NCBI GenBank assembly: GCA_027364495.1
Contig: DAHXPE010000441.1
Coordinates: 1-6,064 of the forward strand
Direction of reading: 5' to 3'
Source of the DNA: Candidatus Heimdallarchaeota archaeon
GTDB taxonomy: Archaea > Asgardarchaeota > Heimdallarchaeia > Hodarchaeales > LC-3
DNA length: 6,064 bases
This document shows positions 1,807 to 6,064 of this stretch, piece after piece. The notes beneath the pieces were generated by a model that had not been told where the DNA came from, did no database searches, and saw only the letters and a program-made list of their open reading frames with translations. The translations under genes and the position numbers were made by a program. Within the stretch, counting starts at the first letter, position 1; each line of letters begins with the position of its first letter.

Positions 1807-2187
1807 TCACACTTTATCAATTACATTTTTTAATTTTTGTTCAACGGACAAAGCAATGTCTTTTAGTTTATCATTTTTTACTACACTCATTGCTTGAGTT
1901 GGAAGTATTGCAGAAACAAATGTTTTTCCTTTATCCATATAAACCAATATATTGCACGGTAGGAGAAGACCGATATCTTTTTCGGATTGTAGACTTTTAT
2001 ACGCAAAAGAAGGATTGCATGCACCAAGTATTACATAATCATCATAATCAACATCAAGTTTCTTTTTTAATGTTGCTTTCACATCTATTTCTGTAAGCAC
2101 ACCAAATCCTTCTTTCTGCAACTCATCTTTTACTTTGCTAACCGCTTGAAAATAGTTTAATTTTGTTTCTTTTTTGTATCCATACAT
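1807..2187 (-). CDS. DUF302 domain protein
   Basis: This 126-residue protein matches the DUF302 family almost from end to end. Hallmarks are the N-terminal segment LNYFQAVSKVKDELQKEGFG (10-29), the motif ILGACNPSFAYKSL (53-66), and GLLLPCNILVY (73-83) with a late Pro at 96. Two Cys residues (C57, C78) lie in the conserved motifs. DUF302 has no settled biochemical role; it is a small alpha/beta domain often found beside metal-resistance and envelope-stress genes. There is no signal peptide, so it should be cytosolic. The start was set at the ATG at 2187 because GAGGT lies 7 nt before it. The longer frame opening with TTG at 2208 would overlap the upstream gene and translate across that ribosome site. 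It is the last gene of the minus-strand cluster, 13 nt after the cupredoxin-like gene. Confidence 0.9.
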   Translation of the reverse strand: MYGYKKETKLNYFQAVSKVKDELQKEGFGVLTEIDVKATLKKKLDVDYDDYVILGACNPSFAYKSLQSEKDIGLLLPCNILVYMDKGKTFVSAILPTQAMSVVKNDKLKDIALSVEQKLKNVIDKV

Positions 2188-2194
2188 TCTATTT

Positions 2195-2199
2195 ACCTC
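2195..2199 (-). promoter_or_regulatory. Ribosome binding site fixing the DUF302 start
   Basis: GAGGT on the minus strand lies 7 nt before the ATG at 2187. It favours this start over the in-frame TTG at 2208. Confidence 0.7.
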
Positions 2200-2200
2200 A

Positions 2201-2545
2201 TTATTCAACGATAATTATTCCAGACATATTTTTGTTGTATTCATTGTGATATCTGTATATTCCTGACTTATGAAAAGTATGATTAAACTTTTGTTCAAAA
2301 GATAAGATGTTTCCTTTAAGATCATCATTAACATCTGGCGTAATACTCTGAATAGAAGTTTCTAGATTTGTCCAAATTACAGTGTCTTCTTTTTTTATCT
2401 TAAGTTTGTTCGGACTAAACGTCGAGTCGATTATTGAAATTTGATATGATTTTGATTCTCTTTTATTATTGATTTCAATGAAAACACTTACTGTTATCAC
2501 TAAGATAACTATCATTATCAGAAGTATTAATATTATTTTTTTCAT
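2201..2545 (-). CDS. Membrane-anchored cupredoxin-like protein lacking most copper ligands
   Basis: Residues 1-25 form an uncleaved-looking hydrophobic anchor (MKK followed by Ile/Leu/Val), and residues 33-114 follow the plastocyanin/amicyanin-like cupredoxin pattern: FSPNKLKIKKEDTVIWTN (43-60), FNHTFHKSGIYRYH (87-100) and MSGIIIVE (107-114). The fold belongs outside the membrane, where family members carry a type 1 copper bound by His, Cys, His and Met. Here the first His position is Q66 (CAG), the Cys position is N101 (AAT) and the second His position is N104 (AAT); only M107 remains. A normal blue copper site is therefore impossible. H89, H92 and H100 are nearby but not at ligand positions. 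No ribosome site precedes ATG 2545, 19 nt after the SHOCT gene, so coupling is likely. It may be a structural or partner protein, or bind Cu(I) differently; that is inference. Confidence 0.85.
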   Translation of the reverse strand: MKKIILILLIMIVILVITVSVFIEINNKRESKSYQISIIDSTFSPNKLKIKKEDTVIWTNLETSIQSITPDVNDDLKGNILSFEQKFNHTFHKSGIYRYHNEYNKNMSGIIIVE

Positions 2546-2564
2546 AGTATAATTTATTATCTTT

Positions 2565-2798
2565 CTAATTGTTGATGTCTTTTTTCATATCATCATATTG
2601 TTTTTTTGTTTTTTCGCCTTTCGCATATCTTTCTTTTAATATGTCTGCAGGACTTCTGTAACTATTATGATTAAAATTTCCATTTCTATTCAAGAGCCAC
2701 ACTATGAACCAAATTATTGCTCCCCAAAACAGTATCATTAAAATCGGACCAAATATTCCCATTCCGTACCAAGTATAATCATTATAATATCCCATCAT
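2565..2798 (-). CDS. SHOCT domain membrane protein
   Basis: This 77-residue protein has one membrane helix (about 15-36, rich in Ile, Phe and Trp) after an aromatic, Tyr/Gly-rich N-terminus. It ends in a SHOCT domain (49-75), recognised by SPADILKERYAKGEKTKKQY. SHOCT is a short C-terminal helical-hairpin module thought to mediate oligomerisation; such small TM-plus-SHOCT proteins frequently sit in heavy-metal and copper gene clusters. The size is usual for the group. AGGTGA (2810-2805) lies 6 nt before the first ATG, supporting this start over the ATG of the second codon. Downstream the cupredoxin-like gene follows after 19 nt. The tail should be cytosolic if the N-terminus is outside. The exact role is unknown. 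Confidence 0.9.
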   Translation of the reverse strand: MMGYYNDYTWYGMGIFGPILMILFWGAIIWFIVWLLNRNGNFNHNSYRSPADILKERYAKGEKTKKQYDDMKKDINN

Positions 2799-2818
2799 TT
2801 TAGTTCACCTGAAGAATT

Positions 2819-2845
2819 AATGTAAAAAGCGCAAAAAATTACATT
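2819..2845. repeat. Inverted repeat with T-tracts between Met-rich and SHOCT genes
   Basis: AATGTAA (2819-2825) and TTACATT (2839-2845) form a perfect 7-bp dyad around a 13-nt spacer. On the minus strand the spacer region reads TTTTTT, GCGC, TTTTT. It lies in the 68-bp gap of the cluster and could be a partial terminator that lowers expression of the downstream genes, or a regulator site. An AAAATATAA-like stretch just upstream (minus strand, about 2848-2856) could be an internal promoter. Confidence 0.4.
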
Positions 2846-2866
2846 TTAATTAAATTATATTTTCAA

Positions 2867-3208
2867 TTAATCAGTATTTCCCATACAAGAATCATGCATT
2901 GCATCCATTTGTTTTGCTGTTTCAGGATCAAGATTTTTTATCATTTGATCGTGTAATGCATTAATTCTATCTTTGGATTCGATGTCAATGTTTCCCATCA
3001 TACCAGAATAATATTCATAATTATTCATCATATTTCTGTAATTTGCATTACCATTCATCATTCCATTATATGCGCCTTGATAGTTTCCCATCATATTCCA
3101 CTTTTGTTCATTCGAATTACTGTATGCATAAGCACCTGCTGTTCCAAACAATAACACGAATATTCCGAACGTAGCAAGTCCATACTTCATATTACTATTA
3201 TTTTTCAT
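2867..3208 (-). CDS. Membrane-anchored Met-rich protein, probable metal (Cu/Ag) binder
   Basis: The 113-residue product has a signal anchor or signal peptide at about residues 8-30 (LATFGIFVLLFGTAGAYAYS). A low-complexity Asn/Gly/Tyr segment follows, with four Met-Met pairs at 39-40, 50-51, 60-61 and 70-71, spaced 10-11 residues apart. A charged helical tail (76-109) ends in MDAMHDSCMG, which adds M101, M104, H105, C108 and M109. Regular Met clusters outside the membrane are typical of Cu(I)/Ag(I) binding in envelope copper-handling proteins, so a metal-buffering role is inferred. I do not recognise a named family. The start at 3208 is chosen because GGAG lies 9 nt upstream and a TATA-like box gives a transcription start near 3223. 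In-frame ATGs at 3238 and 3223 would add 10 or 5 residues without a good signal. It heads the recognisable part of the minus-strand metal cluster. Confidence 0.82.
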   Translation of the reverse strand: MKNNSNMKYGLATFGIFVLLFGTAGAYAYSNSNEQKWNMMGNYQGAYNGMMNGNANYRNMMNNYEYYSGMMGNIDIESKDRINALHDQMIKNLDPETAKQMDAMHDSCMGNTD

Positions 3209-3244
3209 ATTTCTCAACTCCATCCATCCTTTAAGCATGGATAG

Positions 3245-3677: not shown

Positions 3678-4031
3678 ATGATAAAAGATGATGTTTGTGA
3701 AATAATTTCAGTAGATAAAGATGCAGTTCATGAAGTCAAAAAAAAATTACATGATGAGAATGATCTTTATCAAATTTCGGAGCAATTTAAATTATTAGGA
3801 GATCAGACGAGATTAAAAATACTTTCTGCCCTATCAATAAGAGATCTTTGTGTCTGTGATTTATCTAGTATTCTTTCTATATCACAATCTGCTACGTCTC
3901 ATCAATTAAGAGTTTTAAGAAATGCTAAACTTGTAAAATATGTAAAAAAAGGGAAAATAGTATATTATTCCATTTTAGATAATCACGTCAAGACAATGAT
4001 TACATCAGCTCTCAAACATTCAAAGCATTAA
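3678..4031 (+). CDS. ArsR/SmtB family metal-sensing repressor (CadC/SmtB-like)
   Basis: This 117-residue winged-helix repressor should bind the adjacent operator without metal and release it on binding Zn, Cd or Pb. The core QFKLLGDQTRLKILSAL (36-52) and recognition helix SQSATSHQLRVLR (69-81) are typical, followed by the wing KYVKKGKIVYYSI (87-99). Two metal sites are readable. The Cys site uses C7 near the N-terminus and C58-V-C60 in the DLCVCDL motif, at the same numbering as S. aureus CadC, although the second N-terminal Cys (C11 in CadC) is missing. The alpha5 site is complete: D101-x-H103 and H114-x2-H117, spaced as in SmtB and CzrA. The length matches the family. It is followed after 11 nt by the ATPase, the usual repressor-exporter operon. 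Which site senses and which metal is preferred cannot be decided from sequence. Confidence 0.95.
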   Translation: MIKDDVCEIISVDKDAVHEVKKKLHDENDLYQISEQFKLLGDQTRLKILSALSIRDLCVCDLSSILSISQSATSHQLRVLRNAKLVKYVKKGKIVYYSILDNHVKTMITSALKHSKH

Positions 4032-4042
4032 GATGATTAACT

Positions 4043-6064
4043 ATGAGTGAAAAAACAAAAACTTCGTGCTGTTCTATATGCAGTGAAAAGAATACTCAAA
4101 ATAAAAATATTGAAATTCAAATTCAATCAGAAAGTTCTTCAGGAAAAACTTCTGCATTTCTCGAAATGTTTGTAAATAATGAATTTAAATGGTTGATAGT
4201 CGCTTTGCTTGTTGTAATTCCTTTTGAAATAATGGCTTTACTTAAACATCATGCATCTTTATGGATTGAAATTCCATTATTTTTATCAATCATTATTTTC
4301 TTTGGGCGTACTGTAATAATTGATGGTTTAAAAAATTTGATTAAATTCAGATTTTCTAGTATAAATCTATTGATGACCATTGCTATTGTGGGAGCAATTT
4401 ATCTTGGAGAATTTGAAGAAGCGGCAATCATTGTGCTGCTATTTTCACTTGGAGAAAAACTTGAAGAATATGGATTTGAAAAAAGTAAGAACAGCATTGC
4501 GGGATTGATAAAAAAACAACCTAAAGTTGCTCTCTTAAAGGGTAAAAAAGAAAAACAATCTGTTGAATCCGTAAAAATTAACGATATAATTATTGTCAAA
4601 CAAGGAGAACAGATTCCTCTTGACGGAGTTATTGTTAGTGGAAAATCATTCGTTGATGAAGCTGCAATAACTGGTGAACCATTGCCAAAAAACAAAACGG
4701 TAGGGGACATCGTTTTCGCTGCGACAATAAATACAAACAGTTATTTAGAGATAAGAGTCACAAAAATTGCATCCGAAACGACATATGCTAAAATTTTAGA
4801 GATGACTGAAAAGGCTTTAGAGAATAAATCTAATTCACAACAGTTCATAGAGAAGTTTGCTAAGTACTACACTCCTTCAGTTCTTGGAGGATTCGTGCTC
4901 ATGTTAATAATACCAGTTCTAATATTTAATCAATCTTTTAATGTATGGTTTGAAAGAGCATTAACACTTCTCGTGATATCCTGTCCTTGTGCACTCGTTA
5001 TTTCGACACCTATTGCAATATTTTCTGCTATGGGAAACGCATCAAAAAGAGGTGTGCTGATAAAAGGAGGAAAATATGTAGAGGAGCTTGGAAAAATAAA
5101 AATAATGGCATTTGACAAAACAAGAACATTAACGACAGGAGAATTACAGGTAACCGATATCATTCCTTTTAACGGATTTAGCGAAAAAGAAGTAATAGCT
5201 TGTGTAGCTGGAATGGAATCATACTCAGAACACCCACTCGCAAAAGGAGTTATAAAAAAAGCAAATTCCGAAAGTGCAAAGATTCACTTGTTCAAAAATC
5301 TTGAATTTCTGCAAGGAAAAGGAATCAAAGGAGACTGCATGGTCTGCGTTGATAAGCATCATTGCATTGGAAACCTGAAATTTGTGATGCAAGAGCATAA
5401 GATTCCAAAAGAAGTGTTACGAGATCTGAACAGATTAGAACATGAAGGAAAAACAGTTATTATCAGTTGTGATAATAAGAATGTAAAAGGATTAATTGCA
5501 TTGTCGGATACTATTAAACAAGAAAGTAAAGAAGTAATTGCAACAATAAAAAAATTTGGAATCAAACCAATAATATTATCAGGAGATAGCAAGGCATCAG
5601 TCAAATATACGGCAGAACAACTTTCGATAACTGACTATGAAGCAGATTTGCTGCCTGAAGGAAAAGTTGATTTCATTACAAAACTTGCAGTTAAATATAA
5701 GAATGTGGCTATGATCGGAGATGGAGTCAATGATACGCCTGCACTCGCTAAATCATCAGTAGGAATTGCAATGGGTGCTGCTGGTTCAGATTCTGCAATT
5801 GAAACATCAGATATTGTAATACTTAATGACAATATAAAAGTTATCGGTCATATCGTTAATCTAGGAAGAAAAACTACAAATAAAATAAAATTCAATATTG
5901 TATTTGCAATAGTCGTTAAGGCACTTATTTTATGCACAGCAGTTTTAGGGTTTACAAATCTTGCACTGGCAATATTTGCTGATGCCTTGCTATCTCCTGA
6001 TAATATTATTGGTTTGATTCCAAATTTTTTTATTGTTGCAATTACTTCTTTACTTTCTTGTTTA
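4043..6064 (+). CDS. zntA: Zn/Cd/Pb-exporting P1B-type ATPase, C-terminus replaced by inverted sequence
   Basis: The frame is open from ATG 4043 to the window end. Eight membrane helices are expected: about 50-68, 74-95, 107-122 and 126-142, then 279-296 and 304-325 with C314-P315-C316, then 616-636 and 638-650. N618, K626 and D647 together with CPC mark the P1B-2 (Zn/Cd/Pb) class. The actuator TGEP (210-213), HP (397-398), SGD (513-515) and GDGVND (559-564) are all present. The N-terminus has C9-C10-xx-C13 but no HMA domain. Two things are odd. The phosphorylation motif at D358 reads DKTRT, with Arg (AGA) for the nearly invariant Gly. Sequence after about 5983 is a reverse-complement copy of 5515-5600, so residues after FAD (645-647) are not native and some 15-25 C-terminal residues are missing. 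The N domain also carries C432, C435, H439, H440 and C441. It exports cytosolic metal using ATP and is controlled by the upstream repressor. Confidence 0.9.
   Translation, partial: MSEKTKTSCCSICSEKNTQNKNIEIQIQSESSSGKTSAFLEMFVNNEFKWLIVALLVVIPFEIMALLKHHASLWIEIPLFLSIIIFFGRTVIIDGLKNLIKFRFSSINLLMTIAIVGAIYLGEFEEAAIIVLLFSLGEKLEEYGFEKSKNSIAGLIKKQPKVALLKGKKEKQSVESVKINDIIIVKQGEQIPLDGVIVSGKSFVDEAAITGEPLPKNKTVGDIVFAATINTNSYLEIRVTKIASETTYAKILEMTEKALENKSNSQQFIEKFAKYYTPSVLGGFVLMLIIPVLIFNQSFNVWFERALTLLVISCPCALVISTPIAIFSAMGNASKRGVLIKGGKYVEELGKIKIMAFDKTRTLTTGELQVTDIIPFNGFSEKEVIACVAGMESYSEHPLAKGVIKKANSESAKIHLFKNLEFLQGKGIKGDCMVCVDKHHCIGNLKFVMQEHKIPKEVLRDLNRLEHEGKTVIISCDNKNVKGLIALSDTIKQESKEVIATIKKFGIKPIILSGDSKASVKYTAEQLSITDYEADLLPEGKVDFITKLAVKYKNVAMIGDGVNDTPALAKSSVGIAMGAAGSDSAIETSDIVILNDNIKVIGHIVNLGRKTTNKIKFNIVFAIVVKALILCTAVLGFTNLALAIFADALLSPDNIIGLIPNFFIVAITSLLSCL
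5515..5600 (+). repeat. Source arm of the 86-bp inverted repeat (inside the ATPase P-domain)
   Basis: This native ATPase sequence, coding for the region up to the SGD motif, recurs as an exact reverse complement at 5979-6064. Confidence 0.95.
5979..6064 (-). repeat. Inverted copy of 5515-5600 reaching the window end; probable fold-back chimera
   Basis: All 86 bases are the exact reverse complement of 5515-5600, and the match is cut only by the window edge. The flip occurs at CTGATG (5979-5984), which suits both the expected native FAD-coding sequence and the inverted copy, that is, a short microhomology. The identity includes a 7-base homopolymer, so the copy is recent or artificial. It removes the native end of the ATPase. 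Confidence 0.95.

Follow-up and report, generated by a model that had tools for sequence, protein, structure and literature searches.

An exact inverted repeat at the end of an archaeal contig is very probably an artificial fold-back chimera within a Zn/Cd-class ATPase gene

At the right end of the window, i.e., the whole 6,064-nucleotide stretch of DNA analyzed here, a heavy-metal pump gene reads back into its own antisense strand, which raises the question of whether this join is a feature of the archaeal genome or of the contig. The original prediction that positions 5979 to 6064 are the perfect reverse complement of positions 5515 to 5600 was borne out by a repeat search and by a script, the two arms being exact mirrors of one another at 86/86 nt and lying 378 nt apart (Table 1). 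The inner boundary of the repeat is sharp, in that T at 5601 faces G at 5978 and pairing occurs at 15/40 of the first inward positions (script), while the outer boundary coincides with the end of the window, such that 86 nt represents a lower limit. When the window was shuffled 200 times under a first-order Markov model, the longest exact self-reverse-complement word had a mean length of 14.6 nt and a maximum of 22 nt. Folded as single-stranded DNA, positions 5515 to 6064 form a stem from the two arms, and the result lies 15.7 standard deviations below the average obtained for 100 shuffles.

A protein search performed with the product of positions 1473 to 1751 returned the window's own entry, P0121, which comprises one member sequence on one contig, with a longest contig of 6064 bases. 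Because the contig of P0121 has this length, the window spans the contig from end to end, and the last base of the mirror is also the last base of the contig. Such a terminal position is what would be expected of an assembly running into its own reverse complement. It is proposed, with high confidence, that at the end of this short contig the inverted repeat arose artificially as a fold-back (inverted) chimera, for which phi29 multiple displacement amplification (MDA) is the most likely source, chimeras of other library types being a possible source in its place.

Table 1. Coordinates of the features of the window that bear on the join
Feature	Positions	Strand	Basis or remark
Gene for an ArsR/SmtB-family metalloregulator, immediately preceding the pump	3678..4031	+	NF033788, 90.6 bits; PF01022
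P1B-type (Zn/Cd-class) heavy-metal ATPase gene, residues 1 to 647, probably without about the last 20 codons	4043..5983	+	TIGR01525; TIGR01512; alignment; C-terminal length of relatives
Arm 1 of inverted repeat	5515..5600	+	Authentic coding sequence of the pump, as far as about ...ILSGDSKAS
Spacer between arms, 378 nt	5601..5978	+	Authentic coding sequence of the pump, with GDGVND, up to the IF of IFAD; single copy in the window
Arm 2, mirroring arm 1 exactly and extending to the end of the contig	5979..6064	-	Interpreted as the copied-back part of the chimera
Probable 6-nt overlap CTGATG at the join	5979..5984	+	Complementary to CATCAG at 5595-5600; bases 5980 and 5983 presumed native

The predicted product of the gene in which the join lies belongs, by curated score, to the P1B-type Zn/Cd-class ATPases, as it scored 546.7 bits against TIGR01525 (curated cutoff, 346.25) and 470.3 bits against TIGR01512 (curated cutoff, 313.5). 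A protein-database search with this pump scored 7995 candidates, of which the best 120 were listed, the window's own pump not being among these, and 14 of the 120 were taken into an alignment. In that alignment, the pump remains in line with the family through CPC, DKTRT, SEHPLA, and GDGVND up to IFAD and then departs from it abruptly: identity to each of the 14 relatives amounts to 20 to 29 of the 40 residues preceding the switch and to 0 to 3 of the 22 residues following it. D647 is the last pump residue to align with these 14 relatives, and the residues that come next are antisense in origin, the peptide DALLSPDNIIGL being the antisense reading of arm 1. The loss of similarity past residue 647 thus bears out the earlier claim that the TM8 continuation expected after FAD has been replaced by an antisense peptide.

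A complete TM8 with DxG, which we take to be the TM8 motif of P1B Zn/Cd-type ATPases, does not occur in the window's pump, whose aligned part stops at D647. The pump shares with the ATPases described by TIGR01512 and TIGR01525 the CPC motif and the FAD with which the last conserved stretch begins, but differs from them in that, owing to the join, it lacks the remainder of the final membrane stretch. Among the best 120 of the 7995 candidates, F(A/S)DVG is present in 118, and the median distance from its F to the protein end is 24 residues (range, 20 to 51). Because of this median distance in the relatives, the true pump gene probably continues for about 20 further native codons beyond the join, a continuation which is visible at the protein level only, since the relatives found reach at most 52% identity among genome contigs and 84% among the proteins listed. 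We attribute the incomplete TM8 to the contig rather than to the gene itself.

As a short intragenic segment is here bounded by inverted repeats, an invertible (phase-variable) segment was also considered, in which the 86-nt arms would act as recombination sites flipping the 378-nt core. This core, however, encodes GDGVND, which flipping would move to the other strand, and a mirrored tail is present in 0 of the 14 aligned relatives. Furthermore, no recombinase was found among the nine contig proteins (of 16 open reading frames listed) that were scanned against Pfam, NCBIfam, and PHROGs, although the enzyme could be encoded elsewhere, and the probability of such a segment is considered vanishingly small.

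The junction had been placed at CTGATG, a claim which holds insofar as these six bases are certainly arm sequence, whereas their membership in the native gene is in part deduced. The relatives exhibit Ala-Asp-Val at the join (Ala in 13 of the 14 aligned and Ser in 1), and because of the codons required for these residues, four of the six bases (C, G, A, and G) are fixed; the remaining two, at 5980 and 5983, would be native only if the codons were GCT and GAT. The 47 Ala codons of this pump gene comprise 28 GCA, 16 GCT, and 3 GCG codons, and GAT accounts for 15 of its 21 Asp codons, while L001 and L002, the relatives read at the DNA level, possess GCC GAT at this place. The overlap cannot exceed 6 nt, because the next base in the window is C where T is expected in the Val codon, and the contiguous overlap would be reduced to 1 nt were the native Ala codon not GCT. 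When 200,000 inverted joins were placed at random within positions 3700 to 5900, 0.26% of them had an overlap of at least 6 nt. On the reverse strand, the pattern CNGANG set by the four forced bases is matched at 14 of 5973 places. CATCAG is found at five places in the window, two of which (5754 and 5805) are nearer to the join than the site used, which counts against the proposed priming.

The shortness of this overlap also bears on the original prediction that the repeat is either an MDA chimera or a misassembly. Assembly errors tend to gather at contig ends, and the position of the mirror would accord with a pure assembly misjoin, formed without any chimeric molecule. The two pieces nevertheless share at most 6 nt, so that a read carrying the join would presumably have been needed, and the words by which assemblers join reads are far longer than 6 nt. 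Because the overlap lies below the usual word length, a pure misjoin appears less likely than a chimeric molecule and is judged highly improbable; the chimera part of the prediction is supported by the orientation and the spacing and, should the native codons be GCT and GAT, by the overlap.

If the join is indeed a fold-back chimera, its formation can be envisaged as follows. During in vitro copying of the pump gene, a growing strand with the 3′ end ...CTGATG (5979 to 5984) would have left its template and annealed to CATCAG (5595 to 5600) on a nearby plus strand or on the same one, and its backward extension would then have yielded a mirror copy running from position 5600 to 5515 or further. 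The reverse direction of events would give the same chimeric product, and the assembly presumably came to a stop where the mirror leads back into sequence that the contig already contains. Uncultured archaea like the Nanoarchaeia and Woesearchaeota, which are represented among the relatives of the window's proteins, are often sequenced following MDA of single cells, which fits the proposed source without being proof of how this DNA was prepared.

According to PMC4595205 (2015), the larger of two studies, MDA chimeras which join opposite strands display distances that peak at 250 to 300 nt (range, 0 to over 5,000 nt) and overlaps that peak at 6 nt and are mostly 5 to 8 nt long. In the single-cell MDA of Escherichia coli, as described in PMC1855051 (2007), 406 of 475 chimeras were inverted and 337 of these joined segments under 10 kb apart; the complementary stretches that served for priming measured up to 21 nt, and in most chimeras the overlap was 2 to 21 nt. 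The window's join resembles the phi29 MDA inverted chimeras of the two papers in its inverted second segment (86/86 nt), in the closeness of the joined segments (378 nt, i.e., a few hundred bases), in the absence from the copied-back strand of the stretch between the joined points, and probably in a short sequence shared at the join. The spacing is near, not at, the published MDA peak, and the overlap would equal the full 6 nt of CTGATG if the native gene reads GCT GAT and would otherwise be shorter, with four of its six bases fixed. A difference from the chimeras in these sources is that the join is known from an assembled contig rather than from single reads.

Similar joins have also been modeled for living cells, in which DNA would fold back at inverted repeats that are short and interrupted (Kugelberg et al., cited in PMC4689423), and the same geometry would result from an inverted duplication truly present in the cell, formed by snap-back or template-switch replication at such a repeat as a tandem inversion duplication or a similar structure. 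Such an event would possibly amplify the metal-pump region, additional copies of which could be useful. The tandem inversion duplications and fold-back amplifications described in PMC4689423 have in common with the window that a short inverted repeat is the site of an inverted join; the window, however, exhibits a single join, located right at the end of the contig and followed by no further sequence. A second copy was not apparent: a scan of genome contigs yielded eight loci with pump relatives, none of which exceeded 52% identity. The exact 29-nt junction pattern had 0 matches in viral contigs, the one class of contigs searched for it, and the 90% cluster of the neighboring winged-helix protein comprises one contig, which is that of the window. 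A real inverted duplication is, on these grounds, regarded as very unlikely. We attach a very slight probability to its more specific form, a genuine recent fold-back duplication inside the Zn/Cd pump gene of a Nanoarchaeia-like organism, serving as an intermediate of metal-resistance amplification by tandem inversion duplication; were the join real, it would show that an uncultured archaeon had duplicated a gene by fold-back.

The join is consequently treated as an artifact and not as a real feature, and the pump as incomplete rather than disrupted. For annotation purposes, the contig should be cut at 5978, and no gene order can be read to the right of this position.

The best protein-database relative listed for the pump, P0001, shares 84% identity with it, and Woesearchaeota are represented among the best 120 of the 7995 candidates by P0007 (62%) and P0067 (53%). 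Among the matches listed from plasmid records, pump relatives were all under 60% identity, and a search of viral contigs for pump relatives found none. Relatives of this archaeal-looking pump (4043 to 5977) were observed in a Patescibacteria bin (52%), a Chlamydiae bin (47%), and a Criblamydia plasmid record (50%); as judged from such similarities, transfer of the pump between distant lineages is possible. The first organism-labeled relative of the winged-helix neighbor protein is P0128 from Candidatus Nanoarchaeia, at 76% identity.

The phosphorylation motif of the pump (5114 to 5128) reads DKTRT, and in this respect the pump and its close relatives differ from P1B Zn/Cd ATPases with DKTGT, which we take to be the usual form. 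A sequencing error was considered and rejected, since 108 of the best 120 of the 7995 candidates share DKTRT and the other 12 carry DKTKT, DKTGT being found in 0/120. The pumps of L001 and L002 possess DKTRT, and those matched in L003 to L008 possess DKTGT. DKTRT may be the hallmark of a subfamily in which this position is basic; none of the papers searched for the string "DKTRT" contains it. The pump also harbors a Cys/His-rich stretch, CMVCVDKHHC (5336 to 5365), and the corresponding pattern C-x-[V/I]-C-xxx-[H/Q] is present in 100 of the best 120 of the 7995 candidates.

With regard to the rest of the contig, a search of the window for tRNA, tmRNA, and Rfam matches found none. The cluster adjoining the pump (1807 to 3238, minus strand) encodes one protein of the DUF302 family, one that is cupredoxin-like, and two small ones that match no family, and it is possibly metal related, although this is a guess. 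At positions 3 to 695, also on the minus strand, lies an open-ended protein of 231 amino acids without a Pfam, NCBIfam, or PHROGs match, the DNA of which holds an internal repeat (10 to 53 versus 352 to 395; 84% identical).
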